Origin: Streptomyces sp. SLBN-31
Lineage (GTDB): Bacteria; Actinomycetota; Actinomycetes; Streptomycetales; Streptomycetaceae
Length of the DNA stretch: 64,000 nt
Direction of reading: 5' to 3'
NCBI RefSeq assembly: GCF_006715395.1
Contig: NZ_VFNC01000001.1
Location: 558,001-622,000, forward strand
Below, piece by piece: positions 38,746 to 47,028 of this stretch. The position numbers were made by a program, and so were the translations under genes. The notes under the pieces were generated by a model, which saw nothing but the letters and a program-made list of their open reading frames with translations, was not told where the DNA came from and searched no databases. Numbering within the stretch: position 1 is the stretch's first letter; every line of letters starts with the position of its first letter.

Positions 38746-39044
38746 CGGGCGCCGACGGCGCCAGCGAGCGGTCGATCGTCGGCCGCCACGCCCTGCGCGG
38801 CGCCCTCGCGCCGATCATCGCGCTGAACGCCAACGACGTCGGCGCGATGGTGGGCGGCGCCGTCCTCACCGAGACCCTCTTCGGCCTTCCCGGCATCGGT
38901 CAGGAACTCGTCCACGCCGTCAACGTGGTCGACCTGCCGGTCGTCGTCGGCATGGTCCTGGTCATCGGCTTCTTCGTGGTCCTCGCCAACGCCGTCGCGG
39001 ACGTCCTGTACGCGGTGGCCGACCGACGGGTGGTACTGACGTGA
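38742..39044 (+). pseudogene. C-terminal remnant of DppB/OppB-type ABC permease
   Basis: Only about 100 residues remain of a protein that is normally ~300. The recognisable part is the EAA-loop region (ASERSIVGRHALRGALAPII) and the last helices (GAVLTETLFGLPGIGQELV; VVVGMVLVIGFFVVLANAV), with the C-terminal LYAVADRRV. The first ~200 residues, including most membrane helices, are missing; DUF3152 coding sequence sits where they should be. A TTG at 38742 could start translation, but the product could not form a permease. The stop still overlaps the next gene by GTGA, a relic of the intact operon. Confidence 0.88.
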
Positions 39045-40632
39045 GTCTCGTCGAAGTCACGGACCTGACCGTCGGGTTCGGCGCCCTGAAGGCCGTCGAC
39101 GGCCTCTCCTTCGGGCTGGCGCCGGGCGCCGCGCTTGCCCTGGTCGGCGAGTCCGGCTCCGGCAAGTCCACCGTCGCCTCGGCCCTCCTGGGCCTGCACC
39201 GCGGCACGGGCGGCCGGGTCGGCGGCTCCATCGAGGTGGCCGGCACCGACGTACAGCGGGCGTCAGAGGACGAACTGCGGCGGCTGCGCGGAGGGAAGGC
39301 CGCGATGGTCTTCCAGGACCCGCTGTCCTCCCTCGACCCGTACTACGCCATCGGCGACCAGATCGCCGAGGTGCACCGCTTGCACACGCGCGTGTCACGG
39401 CGAGCGGCACGCGCGCGTGCGGTCGAGGTGCTGGAGCGGGTCGGCATACCCGACGCTCCGCGCCGGTCCCGCTCGCGCCCCCACGAGTTCAGCGGTGGCA
39501 TGCGCCAGCGGGCGCTCATCGCCATGGCGCTCGCCTGCCGGCCCGACCTGCTGATCGCCGACGAGCCGACCACCGCCCTCGACGTGACCGTCCAGGCCCA
39601 GATCCTCGACCTGTTGCACATCCTGCGCGAGGAGACGGGCCTGGGGCTGCTGCTCGTCACGCACGACGTCGGCGTGGCGGCCGAGAGCGTCGACGAGGTG
39701 CTGGTGATGCGACACGGGCGCGTGGTGGAACAGGGCCCGGTCGGCGACGTACTGAGGTCGCCCACCCAGGCGTACACACGCGGCCTGCTGGACGCTGTAC
39801 CGCGCGTGGACGCGCCGCGCGCCCCCTCGCGGGCCTCCGACGAGATCGTCCTGGAGGCGACCGGACTCCGGCGCGAATTCGGGCGCGGCAAGCGGGCGTT
39901 CACGGCCGTCGACGACGTGTCGCTGCGCGTCCACCGGGGCGAGACCCTCGGCGTCGTCGGCGAGAGCGGCAGCGGCAAGACGACGCTCGGGCGGATGCTC
40001 GTGGGGCTCCTGGAGCCGACGGCCGGGCAGGTCCGTTACGAGGGCCACGCGCGCGTGGGCGTGAACCCGGCCGTCCAGATGGTCTTCCAGGACCCCGTTT
40101 CCTCCCTCAACCCGCGCCGCAGCGTGGGCGAGTCGATCGCCGACCCGCTGCGCGCGCGGGGCGAGCGCGACGAGACGCGGATCAGGGGGCGCGTGACGGA
40201 ACTGCTGGAGCGCGTGGGGCTCGAAGCGGCGCACTACGACCGCTATCCGCACGAGTTCGCGGCGGTCAGCGCCAGCGCGTGGGCATCGCGCGGGCGCTCG
40301 CGGCCGACCCGCGCGTCATCGTCTGCGACGAGCCGGTCTCGGCCCTCGACGTGACGACCCAGGCCCAGGTCGTGGAGCTGCTCGGCGAACTCCAGCGCGA
40401 ACTCGGCCTGGCGCTGGTCTTCGTCGCCCACGACCTCGCCGTCGTGCGCCGGGTCAGCGACCGGGTCGCGGTGATGCGCCAGGGCCGCATCGTCGAGTCA
40501 GGTCCCGCCGAGGAGGTGTACGACAACCCGCAGGACCCCTACACCAAGCAGCTCCTGGCCGCCGTACCGGCGCTCGACCCCGAGGTGGCGGCCCGGCGCA
40601 GGACGGCCCGGCGCGAACCGGCCTCCCCCTGA
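39041..40632 (+). pseudogene. frameshifted double ABC ATPase (DppD-DppF fusion)
   Basis: Two complete nucleotide-binding domains are encoded. The first has [32 protein letters not shown] and [12 protein letters not shown]. The second has [17 protein letters not shown], then loses frame at about 40258-40260, and resumes one nt earlier with [13 protein letters not shown] and [12 protein letters not shown] in the frame ending at 40632. One nucleotide is missing inside the signature codons (Phe-x-Gly-Gly). Intact, the protein would be about 530 residues. Together with the truncated permease it indicates a decaying oligopeptide importer; a sequencing error cannot be excluded for this base. Confidence 0.88.
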
Positions 40633-40708
40633 CAGAACGTGACTGCGTGATCTCGTAGCGCGATCGAACGCAACTCGCACGGGAAAGTTACGACCGTTCA
40701 CCCCTTTT

Positions 40709-40742
40709 GGTGGTGCGATGGACAACCGTCCATCGCGCCACC
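40709..40742. promoter_or_regulatory. 15-bp hairpin in the leader/promoter region of the polysaccharide operon
   Basis: GGTGGTGCGATGGAC (40709-40723) pairs with 40728-40742 around AACC, with one G-U wobble. It is preceded by CCCCTTTT. It could terminate the ABC remnant or act as an operator or leader element for the genes starting at 40823. Confidence 0.6.
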
Positions 40743-40822
40743 GCCTTGTCCGCATACGTTCTTCCCGCTGCGAGCCGCCGGGTCAACGGCGGCTCCCCAA
40801 ACGGGAGATCGGGGGTGCGCAC

Positions 40823-42496
40823 GTGCGCATCGGACTGCTTACGGAGGGTGGCTATCCGTATGTGAGCGGTGACGCCACGCTCTGGTGCGACCGGCTGGTG
40901 CGCGGGCTCGAGCAGCACGAGTTCGACGTCTACGCCCTCAGCAGCAGCCGGAGCCAGGAGGACGAGGGCTGGGTCGCATTGCCACCGCAGATCGGCCGGG
41001 TACGTACCTCCCCGCTGTGGGCGGCCGAGGACGACGGGGTCGTGTACGGGCGGCGCGCCCGCCGGCGATTCATCGAGTGCTACGGCGAACTGGCGGCCGT
41101 CCTGTGCGCGTCCGTTTCCCAGGAGGCCGTGTCGAACCTGGAGGCGGACCGTTTCGCCAGCGCGCTGTACGGGCTCGCCGAACTTGCCCGCGACGACGGG
41201 GGCGGCCTAGGGGGCGCACTGCGCTCCGAGAGCGCCGTGCGCGCCCTGGAGCGCGCCTGTCGTGCGCCCGGCGCCCAACGGGCGGCGCGCGAGGCGCGCG
41301 TATCCGATCTGCTCTCCGTCGCCGCGCACCTCGAACGCGCTCTGCGCCCCCTCTCGCTCGACTGGTACCAGGACGACGACCTCGGCGCGGTCGACCTGTG
41401 CCACGCCACGACCGGCGGTCCGGCGGCGCTGCCCGGACTGCTTGCCCGCCACTTCTTCGGCGTACCCCTGCTGCTGACCGAGTACGGCGTGCGGCTGCGC
41501 ACGCACTACCTGGCCGCCACGGACGCCCCACCCGCCGTACGCTCCCTGCTCGCCGCCTTCCACGGCAGGCTCGCCGCCGAGACCTACGACCGGGCCGCGA
41601 TCGTGACACCCGGCAACGCGCACGCCCGCCGCTGGCAGGAGCGCTGCGGCGCCGACCGCGCCAAGCTCCGCACGGTCCACCCCGGCATGGACGCCTCGCC
41701 CTTCGCCGAGGTAGGGGAGTCCACGGACTGCGCCGACCCCGACACGCTGGTCTGGGTCGGCCGCGTCGAACCCACGAAGGACCTGGTGTCGCTGCTGCAC
41801 GCCTTCGCCGAGATCCGCAAGGAGGAGCCCAAGACCCGACTGCGGATCATCGGCACTCCGGCCGGCCCCGAGGGCGAGGCCTACCTCGGCCACTGCCGCG
41901 CCCTCGCCGCACAGCTCTTCCCCGACGAGGCCGAGGGCCCGCACACCGTCGGCGACAACCCCGTCTCCTTCGCCGAGATCGGCGGCCCCGAACTGCCGAC
42001 CCCCGCCGACGCCTACGCCGCCGGCGGCGTGACGGTTCTCTCCAGCGTCGTGGAGGGATTCCCGATCAGCCTGGTCGAGGCCATGTTCTGCGGCCGCGCG
42101 ACCGTTTCCACGGACGTCGGCGCGGTCGTGGAGGTCATCGGCGGAACCGGACTCGTCGTTCCGCCCCGCAATCCGCGGGCGCTCGCCGAGGCCTGCGTGG
42201 CGCTGCTGCGCGACCCAGCGCGCCGCGAGCGGCTGGGCGCGGCCGCACGCGCGCGTGCACTCGAACTGTTCACCGTCGAGCAGAACACCACGGCATTTCA
42301 CGGCATTTACCTGGAGATCGTCGCGCGCACCCCGGTGCGCCGGGTCGTCGTCGACGAGACCGGAGAGCCCCGGCCCTTCGCCGTCCCCGCCGAGGCCCAT
42401 GTACCGGGCCGCTGGACCGGCGCCCACGTCGCGGCCCGCAGCGCCCCCGCCTGGGCGACGGAAGCACAGGTCCGCGCCACGGAGGGTGCGCGATGA
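40823..42496 (+). CDS. DUF3492 / PelF-like GT4 glycosyltransferase
   Basis: This is a 557-residue retaining glycosyltransferase. The N-terminal DUF3492 part begins MRIGLLTEGGYPYVSGDATL, like PelF. The middle has PLLLTEYGVRLR and TPGNAHARRW. The GT4 donor-binding half has VGRVEPTKDLVSLLHAF, VLSSVVEGFPISLVEAMFCG (ExxxE-like) and GLVVPPRNPRALAEA. PelF uses UDP-sugars to build the cationic Pel polymer; the donor here is unproven. It is cytoplasmic. GTG at 40823 is chosen to match the family N-terminus. It overlaps the next gene by ATGA. It heads the proposed polysaccharide operon. Confidence 0.88.
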   Translation: MRIGLLTEGGYPYVSGDATLWCDRLVRGLEQHEFDVYALSSSRSQEDEGWVALPPQIGRVRTSPLWAAEDDGVVYGRRARRRFIECYGELAAVLCASVSQEAVSNLEADRFASALYGLAELARDDGGGLGGALRSESAVRALERACRAPGAQRAAREARVSDLLSVAAHLERALRPLSLDWYQDDDLGAVDLCHATTGGPAALPGLLARHFFGVPLLLTEYGVRLRTHYLAATDAPPAVRSLLAAFHGRLAAETYDRAAIVTPGNAHARRWQERCGADRAKLRTVHPGMDASPFAEVGESTDCADPDTLVWVGRVEPTKDLVSLLHAFAEIRKEEPKTRLRIIGTPAGPEGEAYLGHCRALAAQLFPDEAEGPHTVGDNPVSFAEIGGPELPTPADAYAAGGVTVLSSVVEGFPISLVEAMFCGRATVSTDVGAVVEVIGGTGLVVPPRNPRALAEACVALLRDPARRERLGAAARARALELFTVEQNTTAFHGIYLEIVARTPVRRVVVDETGEPRPFAVPAEAHVPGRWTGAHVAARSAPAWATEAQVRATEGAR

Positions 42497-43755
42497 GCGA
42501 GCTGGGAGAACTGGACGGCCCGGGCACACCGCACAGCCCCGGCGCATGGGACGAGCGATCACAGGAGTCGATGACGGACGAGGCGCCCGCACGCACGGAC
42601 GGCGAAACCACCCCACGCACCCGTGCCGACGCAAAACCGCCCGCCCCCCGCCGCACCGCGGCCGACCCCGTGAAGGCACTGATGCACCGTCACCGGGAAC
42701 TGTGCGCACGGGCGGTGGACCCCCTGGAGATCGCGGCCGGCCTGGAGGCCCACGGCATCACCGACCGCACCGCCACGCGTTTCCGTCACCGCGACGTCTT
42801 CGCGCTCGCGGAGGAGATGTTCGCCCGAGCCGCCCGAGACGAGAACCCGTCCGAGCCCCCGAAGACCACCAATGCCTCCCGCGTACGCGCCGGCTGGGCA
42901 CTGCTCACCCTCCTCCCCGGCGTCCTGGCCACGGCGACACTGACGGCCCTTCACCTCACCGACGGACAGACACACACGGCCATCGCGGCAGCCGCCGCCC
43001 TGGCCACCCCCCTGACCCTGCGCGCAGCACTCTCCCGCGGCCCCCTGGCCCCAACTCACCCCACACCACCGGGCTCCACCTCACACGCCCCCGGCACCAC
43101 CCTCTGGACCGCCTGGCTCCTCACCTACGCCCTACTCGGCGACGGCCTCCTGCAAGCAGCCCTCACCGGCGGCCCCGACGGCCTGCCCACAGCCGCCGCC
43201 GACGCCTCCTGGCCCCTCATCACGGCCCCCCTCCTGGCCCTCGCGTGGTCCTGCGCCCCCGCGGCCTGGACGGCCCACCTCCTGGCCGCACGCGCCCACC
43301 GCAGACTGACCACCAGCCGCGCCCTGGACGACTTCTCCACAGCGGTACGCCCCCTTCTCCTCGCCACCCTCACGCTCTACCTGATCGCCCTGACGACGCT
43401 GCTGGCCCTGACCGGCGCGGCCCTGGGCGAGCCCGCACCCTACGCAAGCACGCTCCCCCTGGGCGCCCTGCTGTTCCTCGCCCGCCTCCTGACGACCCAC
43501 GGCTTCACCCACGTCCCCGCCACCGTCCTCATGGCGACGGCCACCACCGAAGCCACGGCACTGGCCACGGTCTTCGCAGCCCGCCTCCCCGGCTGCACAC
43601 CGCTCGCCACCCCCGTACAGACGCTGGCCGACACCTGGGGACCAGCAAGCATCCCGACCCTCACCTGCACCACAGCGGCACTGATCCTGCTGATCCACTC
43701 CGCTCGCACCCTCACCAGGGCCTCGGCCCACACCCCACCGGAGCCCCCGTGCTGA
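42493..43755 (+). CDS. multispanning membrane protein of the polysaccharide operon
   Basis: This 420-residue protein has about 130 cytoplasmic N-terminal residues that include a conserved helical segment (LMHRHRELCARAVDPLEIAAG, LEAHGITDRTATRFRHRDVF). Eight to ten hydrophobic helices follow to the C-terminus. I do not recognise the family. In Pel systems the GT is paired with the polytopic PelG, but sequence similarity to PelG is not evident here, so a transporter role is inference from context. The 4-nt overlap with the glycosyltransferase gene indicates tight coupling. The helices are very rich in Ala, Leu and Thr. Confidence 0.72.
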   Translation: MSELGELDGPGTPHSPGAWDERSQESMTDEAPARTDGETTPRTRADAKPPAPRRTAADPVKALMHRHRELCARAVDPLEIAAGLEAHGITDRTATRFRHRDVFALAEEMFARAARDENPSEPPKTTNASRVRAGWALLTLLPGVLATATLTALHLTDGQTHTAIAAAAALATPLTLRAALSRGPLAPTHPTPPGSTSHAPGTTLWTAWLLTYALLGDGLLQAALTGGPDGLPTAAADASWPLITAPLLALAWSCAPAAWTAHLLAARAHRRLTTSRALDDFSTAVRPLLLATLTLYLIALTTLLALTGAALGEPAPYASTLPLGALLFLARLLTTHGFTHVPATVLMATATTEATALATVFAARLPGCTPLATPVQTLADTWGPASIPTLTCTTAALILLIHSARTLTRASAHTPPEPPC

Positions 43756-44089
43756 GCCGGCCATCACACGCCGGCGACAGCCTCGTACGGCGAGGAGGGG
43801 CCGTGCCGGGGGGTGCCCGCCCGCAGTGCCGGGCGTCAGGACACTGCACCACACGGCCGACAGCACCGCCCGACCGAGGACGGACACCCCCCGGCGCGGC
43901 CCCGACCCACCCACCATCCCCAGGCGCCACGCGCAAAACCACGAAAGCCGCACAGGCGCCGCAGGCATCCCGGCGCTACCGCCCGGAGGCCCCCGCCTCC
44001 GTGCGACCGCCCGGAGGCCCCCGCCTCGAAGGAGCACCACAGATGACCACCGCCCACCCCACCCCCGACGGCGCCCAAGGAGCCGCCCG
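43756..44089 (+). other. 334-nt gap with possible coupled ORF and direct repeat
   Basis: An open frame from GTG 43749 to a stop at 44093 overlaps both neighbours in the manner of an operon gene, but its product (114 residues, Arg/Pro/Gly-rich) has poor third-position bias. A shorter frame with a good Shine-Dalgarno starts at ATG 44043 (16 codons, ends ATGA on the epimerase start). A 22-nt direct repeat occurs at 43978-43999 and 44006-44027. I do not call a gene here. Confidence 0.4.
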
Positions 44090-45049
44090 ATGAGAGTCCT
44101 GCTGATCGGAGCCAACGGCTACCTCGGCCGCTTCGTGGCCGACCGCCTCCTCGCCGACCCGGCCGTCCAGCTCACCGCCCTCGGCCGGGGCGACGACGCC
44201 GACGTCCGCTTCGACCTCGCGTCCGGCAGCCCCGGCGCCCTCACCCGCTTCCTCGACGCGGTACACCCGGGGGTCGTCGTCAACTGCGCGGGCGCCACCC
44301 GGGGCGGTGCCCGCGAACTCACCCGGCACAACACCGTCGCCGTCGCCACCGTCTGCGAGGCCCTGCGCCGCAGCGGCTGCGGCGCCCGTCTGGTGCAGAT
44401 CGGCTGCGGCGCCGAGTACGGCCCCAGCCAGCCCGGCTCCTCCACGGCCGAGGACGCCGTCCCGCGTCCCGGCGGCCCGTACGGCGTGAGCAAGCTCGCC
44501 GCCACCGAACTCGTCCTCGGCTCCGGCCTGGACGCGGTCGTCCTGCGCGTCTTCTCGCCCGCCGGCCCCGGCACCCCGGCCGGCTCGCCCCTGGGCCGCC
44601 TCGCGGAGGCCATGCGCCGAGCCATGCAGTCAGGCGACGGCGAGCTCAAACTCGCGGGCCTGGGCGCCCAGCGCGACTTCGTCGACGTACGCGACGTGGC
44701 ACGGGCCGTCCACGCCGCGAGCCTGTCCGCCGCCCAGGGCGTCATCAACATCGGCTCCGGCCGCGCCGTCCGCCTGCGCGACGCCGCCGCCACCCTCGCC
44801 CGCGTGGCCGGATACGGCGGCGCCCTCCACGAACTCGACGGCCCGCCCGGCCCGCTGCGCGCCCCGATCGGCCACCCTCGCGGTGATTCCGACCACGTGG
44901 CCTCCGTCGCGTACCCGTACCCGGACGGCTGCGGCAGCTGGCAGCAGGCCGATGTGCGCACCGCACGCGACCGGCTCGGCTGGCGGCCCCGGATCAACCT
45001 CGAAGAGTCCCTCGCCGACATCTGGATGGAGGCGGCATGCCGCATCTGA
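44090..45049 (+). CDS. NAD-dependent sugar-nucleotide epimerase/dehydratase (extended SDR)
   Basis: This is a 319-residue extended SDR enzyme. The Rossmann motif is LIGANGYLG (GxxGxxG), then VVNCAGATRGG, the catalytic region QIGCGAEYGPS and the YxxxK pair in PYGVSKLAATE. A substrate-binding C-terminal half (RDFVDVRDVARAVHAA) follows. Such enzymes make UDP-galactose/GalNAc or dTDP-sugars. The sequence does not fix the specificity, but a supply of activated sugar for the adjacent glycosyltransferase is the obvious idea. ATG 44090 follows AAGGAGCC. Its end overlaps the spherulin-like gene by 13 nt. Confidence 0.88.
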   Translation: MRVLLIGANGYLGRFVADRLLADPAVQLTALGRGDDADVRFDLASGSPGALTRFLDAVHPGVVVNCAGATRGGARELTRHNTVAVATVCEALRRSGCGARLVQIGCGAEYGPSQPGSSTAEDAVPRPGGPYGVSKLAATELVLGSGLDAVVLRVFSPAGPGTPAGSPLGRLAEAMRRAMQSGDGELKLAGLGAQRDFVDVRDVARAVHAASLSAAQGVINIGSGRAVRLRDAAATLARVAGYGGALHELDGPPGPLRAPIGHPRGDSDHVASVAYPYPDGCGSWQQADVRTARDRLGWRPRINLEESLADIWMEAACRI

Positions 45050-45786
45050 CCAGCACCAAGACGTACTCCCCGAGCACGGCGTTCCGCACCGTCTTCGGCA
45101 TCCCCGGCTACGCGCACCCCCTCGTCGCCCCCACTGAATGGAGCGAACTGACCCGCCCGGGCACACCCCTGCACTGGGTGGTCCTCAACGTCGCCGACGG
45201 CCCCGGCAGCCGCCCCGACCCGCACTGCCTGGAGGCGGCCGGCCGCCTGCGCAACGCGGGCGTCCGCGTCCTCGGCCACCTCGACGCCACCTTCGGCGCC
45301 CGCACCTTCGGCGAGATGATCTCCGACGCGCACCGCTACATCGACTGGTACCGGGTCGACGGCTTCCTCCTCGACCGCTGCCCGACCGAACGCACGTCGC
45401 TTCCCGGGATCCGCCGCACCGTCACCACGCTCCGCGCCGTCCGTGACGACGCCCACATCGTCCTCGGCCACGGCACCCACCCGTACCCCGGATACGCGGA
45501 GGCCGCCGACCAGCTGGTCACCTTCTCGGGGCCGTGGAACGACTACCGCTGGTCGCAGGTGGCCGAGTGGACGGCCGACTACCCGCCCGACCGCTTCTGC
45601 CACTTCGTCCACGGGGTCCCGGGCCCCCACCTCGACGAAGCGCTCCGCATCGCCCGCTGGCAGGGCGCCTCGACCATCTACTTCACGGACCGCACCGACC
45701 GCGGCGGACGCACCGACCCTTGGGAGACCATGCCCGGCTACTGGGACGACATCGTCTCGCGGATCGGAACGGGTGTCTCGGAATGA
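45037..45786 (+). CDS. spherulation-specific family 4 (spherulin 4) glycosidase-like protein
   Basis: This is a 249-residue TIM-barrel-type protein. FGIPGYAHPLVAP, PLHWVVLNVADGPGSRPD, GVRVLGHLDATFGAR and YIDWYRVDGFLLDRCP follow the spherulin-4 pattern. Family members include Sph3-type endo-alpha-1,4-N-acetylgalactosaminidases. The Asp in GFLLD is kept, but the usual following Glu is Arg, so activity needs testing. There is no signal peptide, unlike known exported members; a cytoplasmic place is odd for a hydrolase of an exported polymer. ATG 45037 follows GGAGGCGGC. It is the last gene of the proposed operon. Confidence 0.78.
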   Translation: MPHLTSTKTYSPSTAFRTVFGIPGYAHPLVAPTEWSELTRPGTPLHWVVLNVADGPGSRPDPHCLEAAGRLRNAGVRVLGHLDATFGARTFGEMISDAHRYIDWYRVDGFLLDRCPTERTSLPGIRRTVTTLRAVRDDAHIVLGHGTHPYPGYAEAADQLVTFSGPWNDYRWSQVAEWTADYPPDRFCHFVHGVPGPHLDEALRIARWQGASTIYFTDRTDRGGRTDPWETMPGYWDDIVSRIGTGVSE

Positions 45787-45849: not shown

Positions 45850-47028
45850 GTGTCGCTGCCACCCCTGGTCGAGCCAGCCTCTGAGCTCACCGTAGACGAG
45901 GTTCGCAGGTACTCCCGCCACCTGATCATCCCCGACGTCGGGATGGACGGGCAGAAGCGGCTGAAGAACGCCAAGGTGCTCTGTGTGGGCGCCGGCGGCC
46001 TGGGCTCGCCGGCGCTGATGTACCTGGCCGCCGCGGGCGTCGGCACCCTCGGCATCGTGGAGTTCGACGAGGTCGACGAGTCGAACCTGCAGCGCCAGAT
46101 CATCCACAGCCAGTCCGACATCGGCCGCTCCAAGGCCGAATCCGCCCGTGACACCGTCAAGGGCATCAACCCGTACGTGAACGTGATCCTTCACGAGGAG
46201 CGGCTCGAGGCCGACAACGTGATGGACATCTTCAGCCAGTACGACCTGATCGTCGACGGCACGGACAACTTCGCGACCCGCTACCTGGTCAACGACGCGT
46301 GCGTGCTGCTGAACAAGCCGTACGTGTGGGGTTCGATCTACCGCTTCGACGGCCAGGCCTCCGTCTTCTGGTCCGAGCACGGCCCCTGCTACCGCTGCCT
46401 CTACCCGGAGCCCCCGCCGCCGGGCATGGTCCCCTCCTGCGCCGAGGGCGGCGTGCTGGGCGTGCTGTGCGCGTCCATCGGCTCCATCCAGGTCAACGAG
46501 GCCATCAAGCTCCTCGCGGGCATCGGCGAGCCGCTGGTCGGCCGGCTGATGATCTACGACGCTCTGGAGATGCAGTACCGCCAGGTCAAGGTCCGCAAGG
46601 ACCCGAACTGCGCGGTCTGCGGCGAGAACCCGACCGTCACCGAGCTCATCGACTACGAGGCCTTCTGCGGCGTCGTCTCCGAGGAGGCCCAGGAGGCGGC
46701 GGCCGGCTCGACGATCACTCCGAAGCAGCTCAAGGAGTGGATCGACGACGGCGAGAACATCGAGATCATCGACGTCCGCGAGATCAACGAGTACGAGATC
46801 GTCTCGATCCCCGGCGCCAAGCTGATCCCCAAGAACGAGTTCCTCATGGGCACCGCCCTGGAGACCCTCCCGCAGGACAAGAAGATCGTCCTGCATTGCA
46901 AGACGGGTGTCCGCAGTGCGGAAGTCCTCGCGGTCCTGAAGTCGGCGGGCTTCTCCGACGCCGTGCACGTCGGCGGCGGAGTGATCGGCTGGGTCAACCA
47001 GATCGAGCCCGACAAGCCGATCTACTAG
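45850..47028 (+). CDS. moeZ: MoeZ-type adenylyltransferase/sulfurtransferase
   Basis: This 392-residue protein fuses a ThiF/MoeB adenylation domain (about 15-255: GAGGLGSPALMYLAAAGVG, FDEVDESNLQRQ) to a rhodanese domain (about 285-390) with active-site C350 in LHCKTGVR. CxxC pairs (CYRC, CAVC) hold zinc. It activates and thiolates sulfur-carrier proteins such as MoaD, ThiS and CysO-like partners. In actinomycetes it also serves natural-product sulfur incorporation. GTG 45850 follows GGAG. A good terminator follows. It is single-copy-like housekeeping rather than part of the sugar operon, though only 63 nt separate them. Confidence 0.93.
   Translation: MSLPPLVEPASELTVDEVRRYSRHLIIPDVGMDGQKRLKNAKVLCVGAGGLGSPALMYLAAAGVGTLGIVEFDEVDESNLQRQIIHSQSDIGRSKAESARDTVKGINPYVNVILHEERLEADNVMDIFSQYDLIVDGTDNFATRYLVNDACVLLNKPYVWGSIYRFDGQASVFWSEHGPCYRCLYPEPPPPGMVPSCAEGGVLGVLCASIGSIQVNEAIKLLAGIGEPLVGRLMIYDALEMQYRQVKVRKDPNCAVCGENPTVTELIDYEAFCGVVSEEAQEAAAGSTITPKQLKEWIDDGENIEIIDVREINEYEIVSIPGAKLIPKNEFLMGTALETLPQDKKIVLHCKTGVRSAEVLAVLKSAGFSDAVHVGGGVIGWVNQIEPDKPIY

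Follow-up and report, generated by a model that had tools for sequence, protein, structure and literature searches.

Do four adjoining genes of Streptomyces sp. SLBN-31 form a minimal aminosugar polymer pathway in its own right, as an earlier note on this DNA had proposed, or do they belong with something larger? The genes lie on the forward strand at 40823–45786 of the window, by which we mean the whole 64,000-nucleotide stretch of contig NZ_VFNC01000001.1 (positions 558,001 to 622,000) that was analysed, and they encode, in order, a PelF-like glycosyltransferase (GT), a polytopic membrane protein, an extended short-chain dehydrogenase/reductase (SDR) and a Spherulin-4 protein, with moeZ downstream. 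The explanation we favour, with a confidence just short of even, is that this operon is related, in reduced form, to a complete galactosaminogalactan (GAG)/Pel-like cluster, from which it most likely descends in place, and that it now makes an envelope glycan during differentiation.

The GT gene (40823..42496, + strand, GTG start, 557 amino acids (aa), GT4 type) matches DUF3492 (PF11997) at 108.5 bits against a cut-off of 23.3, together with GT1, and only just passes the PelF equivalog NF038011 (104.8 bits against 100, a margin of 4.8). The SDR gene (44090..45049, +, 319 aa), which is nucleotide-sugar epimerase/reductase-like and has its catalytic Ser changed to Cys, matches Epimerase (PF01370) at 125.3 bits, and the GH135-like Spherulin-4 gene (45037..45786, +, 249 aa) matches PF12138 at 81.2 bits against a cut-off of 30.2, with a profile match to Sph3 (5d6t) at E 1.3e-27. 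The product of the second gene (42493..43755, +, 420 aa), a membrane protein with a cytosolic N-terminal domain and a suggested MOP-like fold, matches no Pfam or NCBIfam family. The landmark downstream, moeZ (45850..47028, +), matches NF005902 at 759.4 bits against 647 and is a constant neighbour. The family calls made from the sequence by eye therefore stand, and these matches, with the homology to parts of fuller clusters described below, place the pieces in the world of Pel and GAG systems, as had been suggested. The same note had described the genes as largely overlapping; this holds for the GT and membrane genes, which meet in an ATGA overlap, and for the SDR and Spherulin-4 genes, which share 13 nt, and does not hold for the membrane and SDR genes, which are 334 bp apart.

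Clusters with more parts provide the comparison on which the argument turns. In 296 genomes sampled at the level of the class and scanned for both families, Spherulin-4 was found in 23 and DUF3492 in 33. The two adjoin in Streptomyces and in three of the five non-Streptomyces genomes with a Spherulin-4 protein, a co-occurrence whose absence would have told against the earlier proposal; the other two have their Spherulin-4 matches on contigs about 5 kb and 3 kb long, and no DUF3492 protein was found in either genome. Nineteen places were read in detail, and these GAG-like clusters (L121-L139) occur in Streptomyces and other Actinobacteria, two larger kinds being seen in Streptomyces. The first kind (nine stretches: L121-L126, L137-L139) comprises an Agd3-like deacetylase, PelF, the membrane protein, an SDR, a nucleotidyltransferase, a second SDR and Spherulin-4, with the SDR and nucleotidyltransferase pair placed between the membrane gene and the second SDR; the Agd3-like gene is present in six of the nine, as a fragment in L125 and not found in L126 and L138, Spherulin-4 is present in eight (not in L137) and GH114 in five. 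The second kind (four stretches: L127-L130) has the Agd3-like gene, PelF, the membrane protein and Spherulin-4, with GH114 in one of the four. We note that position, together with Pfam matches that are weak (22.1 and 15.4 bits, the cut-off being 27.6; 14.9 bits to the Agd3 carbohydrate-binding module in a further cluster, L206), is the basis of the Agd3 label; blast with two Agd3-like queries found kin in 15 of the 18 other stretches, one of these a fragment. The GH114 of a fuller cluster is clear, at 301.7 bits.

The GT, membrane protein, SDR and Spherulin-4 protein of these fuller loci are homologous to those of the window operon, which differs in having no Agd3-like or GH114 gene and in the changed catalytic residues of its Spherulin-4 protein and SDR. 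Operons of bacteria that combine agd3 with genes for a cytoplasmic GT and a multi-spanning membrane protein, joined in some Actinobacteria by Spherulin-4, were reported earlier (Bamford et al., 2020; PMC7229062), and the window operon is like them in the last three parts; fuller clusters of this GAG/Pel-like type are thus already published in outline. We found no characterisation of the operon itself in the open-licence PubMed Central literature, which is weak as a negative. The source genome holds one DUF3492 gene and one Spherulin-4 gene; with the Agd3-like protein of L121 as query it gave no deacetylase match at E 1e-5, either at the locus or elsewhere, in agreement with the view that the operon has no deacetylase, and its single GH114 gene lies outside the operon at G000:C2:2626276-2626920. 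The operon is therefore not accessory to a second such cluster in this genome.

The link between the fuller clusters and the moeZ-linked operon comes from one genome of the Streptomycetaceae (G309). Here a complete Agd3-type cluster (L206:1399-16067) ends 2.5 kb before moeZ, with one gene on the opposite strand between them, and carries an Agd3-like gene, a PelF with HGGVS and EX7E motifs, an SDR with Ser, a Spherulin-4 protein with its Glu, and GH114. In the GT tree this locus branches first in the moeZ-linked clade, with support of 100/99 for the whole clade and the same for its remaining members; in the Spherulin-4 tree it is again first-branching among the moeZ-linked proteins (clade 99/92, rest without L206 94/86), and the SDR tree places it within the moeZ-linked group (94/98), where the inner forks are weak. 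The simplest reading of these trees is the reduction in place of a complete cluster beside moeZ, although G309 may instead have gained its extra genes later. On this evidence the window operon looks less like a minimal pathway of its own than like the reduced kin of a fuller cluster.

What has been lost is clearest in the Spherulin-4 protein. The enzyme Sph3 uses an Asp nucleophile and Glu222 as general acid/base (PMC12054363, where the text prints Asp196), and its inactive variant is D166A (PMC8546845); in the Sph3 PDB chain the two aligned residues, counted on the alignment, are 56 apart, which fits 166 and 222. All 16 Spherulin-4 proteins from fuller clusters have both residues (14 of their 16 stretches hold an Agd3-like gene or a fragment of one), whereas of the 93 moeZ-linked proteins of Streptomyces 83 retain the Asp and none the Glu222 equivalent; in the window the Glu is replaced by Ser at residue 164. 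The Asn of an NxG motif follows the same course, being present in 16/16 of the fuller-cluster proteins and replaced by Gly in 90/93. Of seven moeZ-linked proteins from other genera, those of L206 and L209 keep the Glu, that of L201 has Asp, and the remaining four have other residues. The earlier note had pointed to a changed neighbour of the catalytic Asp; the change, Asp-Arg for Asp-Glu, is real, but Gln or Arg stands there in 14 of the 16 fuller-cluster proteins, and we rejected it as a mark of inactivity. The telling change is the one at residue 164, and the glycosidase-like protein is predicted to be inactive. Its N-terminus is not strongly hydrophobic (highest 12-residue Kyte-Doolittle mean 1.07 over the first 40 residues), so that no signal peptide is evident by this measure of hydropathy, as had been noted. 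The protein is kept despite its lost acid catalyst, to judge from a median ratio of nonsynonymous to synonymous substitution rates (dN/dS) of 0.213, and inactive hydrolases of the Sph3 group can serve as lectins (PMC8546845). A minimal pathway for an aminosugar polymer in which every enzyme, the glycosidase included, is active, as first envisaged, would account for the family memberships and for the co-occurrence of the genes, but the uniform loss of the acid residue from the moeZ-linked Streptomyces proteins and the Asn-to-Gly change, set against the retention of both in the fuller clusters, make it very improbable.

A similar change is seen in the SDR. Extended SDR epimerases use a Ser/Thr-Tyr-Lys catalytic set, in place of which the Streptomyces operon SDR has Cys-Tyr-Lys, with Cys at the Ser position in 94/94 sequences and Tyr and Lys in 94/94. 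Its counterpart in the fuller clusters has Ser in 11/11, and among 20 SDRs from other genera 13 have Ser and seven have Cys; in genome G304 the catalytic Tyr is replaced by Phe.

The GT shows a different pattern, which depends on lineage. Both Glu residues of the EX7E motif are found in all 86 Streptomyces orthologues, R314 in 83 and K319 in 84; the donor motif is retained and the enzyme looks intact as predicted from these residues, and the PelF GGVS loop and the H221/R228 equivalents are changed. At nine loci of other genera (L195, L196, L202, L205, L210-L214; genera g116, g117, g124 and g127) the donor motif is lost: neither R314 nor K319 is present (L213 has Arg in place of the latter), and the first Glu of EX7E is gone too, L195 having a Glu one place off. 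These pseudo-GT genes have nevertheless kept an open frame of 480–612 aa upstream of the SDR and moeZ, and in the four that were scanned (L211-L214) the DUF3492 score is still 37.7–112 bits. In the five pairs of pseudo-GT loci that were measured, dN/dS is 0.36–0.51 for the GT and 0.06–0.19 for the SDR, which retains Ser, Tyr and Lys at all nine loci.

These observations bear on an alternative in which the locus specifies a mostly non-catalytic envelope or regulatory complex, with the SDR as its core. In it the SDR and the Spherulin-4 protein would be pseudoenzymes, joined in some genera by the GT, and would bind nucleotide sugars or glycan chains and signal or act as a scaffold. The open frames and constrained divergence of the pseudo-GT genes speak for it, as do the Ser-to-Cys, Tyr-to-Phe and Glu losses described above and the position of the SDR as the most constrained protein of the set; there is also a precedent in PelD of streptococci, clostridia and actinobacteria, whose N-terminal epimerase domain was judged likely inactive (PMC7112168). 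However, the Streptomyces GT keeps EX7E and, in nearly all sequences, R314 and K319, the Cys of the SDR might stand in for Ser, and the SDR retains its full catalytic set where the GT has lost its donor motif. We regard this alternative as unlikely, while ranking it first among the rivals to reduction of a glycan-making cluster.

The membrane protein bears on how the product might be handled. Its counterpart in the fuller clusters is a homologue (hhalign probability 99.7, E 4.5e-26); the window protein thus does not belong to an unrelated family, which would have told against the earlier proposal. An identity as PelG by sequence was rejected, as there is no PF16933 match in the protein; the only match to that family in the source genome lies elsewhere and below the cut-off (26.3 against 29 bits), and none of 43 distant relatives is named PelG. 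A profile search for solved structures returned nothing credible (best E 0.03). Its closest folds include MurJ and WzxE, and the resemblance to MOP flippases is suggestive only. These two folds, with the changed GGVS loop and H221/R228 equivalents of the GT and a GDP-6-deoxy-hexulose reductase as the nearest solved SDR, would suit a GT and membrane protein that act on a lipid- or wall-linked acceptor, in teichoic-acid decoration or in the making of a short, flipped lipid-linked glycan, without any Pel/GAG polymer. The nearest fuller relatives, however, resemble synthase-type clusters with Spherulin-4, some of them with GH114 hydrolases, and we consider this second rival rather doubtful, more so than the complex of pseudoenzymes.

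Conservation of the locus was followed in Streptomyces by a Spherulin-4 protein scan of genome contigs, from which the best 80 of 401 related stretches, all Streptomyces, were taken. The order GT, membrane gene, SDR, Spherulin-4, moeZ is complete in 71 of these 80 (in L068, counted here, only the tail end of the GT is present) and in the other nine a contig end cuts the locus before the GT, which bears out the claim that the four genes are real, co-oriented and conserved; SDR identity over the 80 loci is 85–98%. In 15 further Streptomyces loci from whole genomes the GT, membrane gene, SDR and moeZ are present in 15/15 and Spherulin-4 in 12/15, being missing from L144, L146 and L153. An SDR of the moeZ-linked type (at least 59% identity) was found in 112 of the 121 Streptomycetaceae genomes sampled, covering 15 of 17 genera, and in 28/28 of the Streptomyces genomes sampled; each of the 20 loci read from other genera has moeZ downstream of the SDR, no more than 5 kb away and in the same orientation. 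No part of the locus is more constant than the SDR: in G304 it stands with Spherulin-4 and neither a GT nor a membrane gene could be detected, and in G303 it is the only part present. By the Nei-Gojobori method, with the operon genes compared with 15 chosen relatives, median dN/dS is 0.075 for the SDR, 0.213 for Spherulin-4, 0.241 for the GT and 0.441 for the membrane protein, the fastest-evolving of the four, and all four genes are under purifying selection.

Upstream of the GT gene we identified a candidate ECF-sigma-like promoter (40666..40692, +), with GAAC at 40666-40669, a 17-bp spacer and GTTACG at 40687-40692, a pair that we liken to the consensus of extracytoplasmic function (ECF) sigma factors. 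Among 81 Streptomyces leaders, GAAC stands exactly 17 bp ahead of GTYACG/T in 74 and AAAC in six; [GC]AAC at that spacing occurs in 1.15% of shuffled segments, from which no probability follows, as the sequences are related. Beyond it lies a conserved leader (40697..40742, +) made up of the box TTCACCCC (40697-40704), found in 80/81 leaders, and a 15-bp hairpin with an AACC loop (40709-40742); GGACAACCGTCC is found in 79/81. In 53 sequences, whose selection for the 12-mer GGACAACCGTCC itself fixes the inner pairs, pairing holds in 95.3% of cells, and 5 of the 15 pairs change on both sides. These double-sided changes exceed those of 498 of 500 shuffles, a comparison that related sequences can also exceed and that therefore gives no probability. 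The frequent G-U pairs in the hairpin favour an RNA element over a DNA operator, and CACCCC of the leader box could pair with GGGGGTG before the GTG start (40811..40817, +; present in 69/81), possibly as a riboregulator. No Rfam family matched the leader at its gathering score (best 14.9 bits against 50).

A BldM site at TCACCCCTTTTGGTGG was considered and set aside as a weak lead, being only a partial match to the group I consensus TCACcCgnncGgGTGA (PMC4125116), with its right half inside the hairpin stem. One copy of the leader stands out clearly when the source genome is scanned with the model (E 1.4e-22, against 1.9 for the next forward-strand match), and the box has one exact copy and ten places with one or two mismatches; the flanks of three of these ten (L216, L219 and L222) show no hairpin core, and hence no leader regulon is seen. 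In other genera 10 of 16 leaders are without the pattern, including those of all nine pseudo-GT loci.

In S. coelicolor SCO5178 is moeB (PMC4340878), and gene order would accordingly make SCO5174-5177 the operon; SCO5178 is also termed a putative sulfurylase, and two further sources (PMC7112194, PMC7560446) gave nothing more on Streptomyces pel genes. SCO5174 (“transferase”), SCO5175 and SCO5177 are up by log2 2.2 to 3.8 in the second mycelium (MII) compared with the first, and stand in a table of the 53 conserved genes without known function that changed most strongly (PMC3610822); the available text of that study does not mention SCO5176. SCO5174 mutants are listed with decreased actinorhodin (PMC6585502). 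The operon thus appears to be turned on at colony differentiation, with three of its four genes induced as mapped by gene order. A decaying relic without function might be suspected from the loss of parts along the family and the fast evolution of the membrane protein, but purifying selection on all four genes, nearly invariant promoter and leader blocks, the developmental induction of the mapped genes (PMC3610822) and the SDR in every Streptomyces genome sampled make this the least probable of the explanations weighed here.

Two further features of the region are of note. The gap between the membrane and SDR genes contains a small open reading frame of 16 codons (44043..44093, +) that ends by an ATGA overlap at the SDR start. 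This overlap is seen in 91/91 loci because the second SDR codon is AGG (56) or AGA (35), codons that are rare choices in DNA such as this; an ATG with a Shine-Dalgarno-like stretch giving a frame of at most 30 codons is found in 79 of the 91, and 56 of these give 15 codons. Upstream of the operon, 38751-40581 is the remnant of a peptide-type ATP-binding cassette (ABC) transporter operon, of which L209 has a complete version; only the C-terminus of a permease (residues 233-329 of 329) and an ATPase matched in two frames remain, and the second permease and the binding protein gave no match at E 1e-3.

Comparison with other known systems shows both likeness and difference. The Aspergillus GAG cluster (Uge3, Gtb3, Sph3, Ega3 and Agd3; PMC4817252, PMC7229062), as described there, is alike in its epimerase-type SDR, its GT with a membrane part and its Sph3 homologue; in the window the GT and membrane part are separate genes, the operon has no Agd3 or Ega3 homologue, and the Sph3 homologue is predicted to be inactive and cytosolic. 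The Gram-positive pelDEADAFG operon (Whitfield et al., 2020; PMC7112168) is alike in having a PelF-type GT beside a polytopic membrane protein and an epimerase-type SDR tied to the synthase, and differs in its pelD, pelE and pelADA genes and in the PelG family, to which the window protein is unmatched. PelD, PelE and PelA were absent from the seven proteins scanned at or beside the locus, no genome-wide search having been made. Of a Pel system, then, the operon has the PelF glycosyltransferase, by a narrow pass of NF038011, and not PelG (PF16933); of a CE18/GAG-type system it has neither the Agd3-like deacetylase nor an operon GH114; and of an active GH135 enzyme it has the Spherulin-4 fold family without the Asp and Glu catalytic pair.

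Reduction of a complete cluster remains the explanation we prefer, and it draws on features read directly from the sequences: the homology of the parts, the absent deacetylase and GH114 genes, the first-branching L206, the GT motif, the loss of the Spherulin-4 Glu, the SDR Ser-to-Cys change and the constraint on the genes. The ancestral cluster, of a type that makes a sticky galactosamine-like polymer, would have held an Agd3-like deacetylase, a PelF-type GT, a membrane exporter, nucleotide-sugar enzymes, a Spherulin-4 hydrolase and a GH114 hydrolase. In its present form, the GT and the MOP-like membrane protein would jointly polymerise and extrude a neutral, non-deacetylated hexosamine/hexose glycan at the mycelial surface during differentiation; the SDR would supply or sense the nucleotide sugar, and the cytosolic Spherulin-4 protein, its acid catalyst gone, would bind the nascent chain or the synthase without cutting. 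The candidate ECF-type promoter and structured leader may time expression. Our best guess for the product is a non-deacetylated hexosamine/hexose envelope polymer. A bolder history, which we put forward as an unlikely one, is that in Streptomycetaceae a whole synthase cluster beside moeZ became a developmental pseudoenzyme complex, with the GT dead in one lineage and the hydrolase and probably the SDR dead in the other, the proteins still under selection, and with its own single-locus RNA leader in Streptomyces and near genera.

The reduction beside moeZ is new, as are the structured leader and the systematic way in which catalytic residues were lost while selection continued. The operon matters because its SDR is present in all 28 Streptomyces genomes sampled and three of its four genes are apparently induced when S. 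coelicolor differentiates. The moeZ-linked loci form a natural series from a complete cluster to a set of pseudoenzymes, open to simple knock-out and residue tests in model strains, and Streptomyces may carry a GAG-like envelope glycan system apart from the fuller clusters that are found in only some strains.

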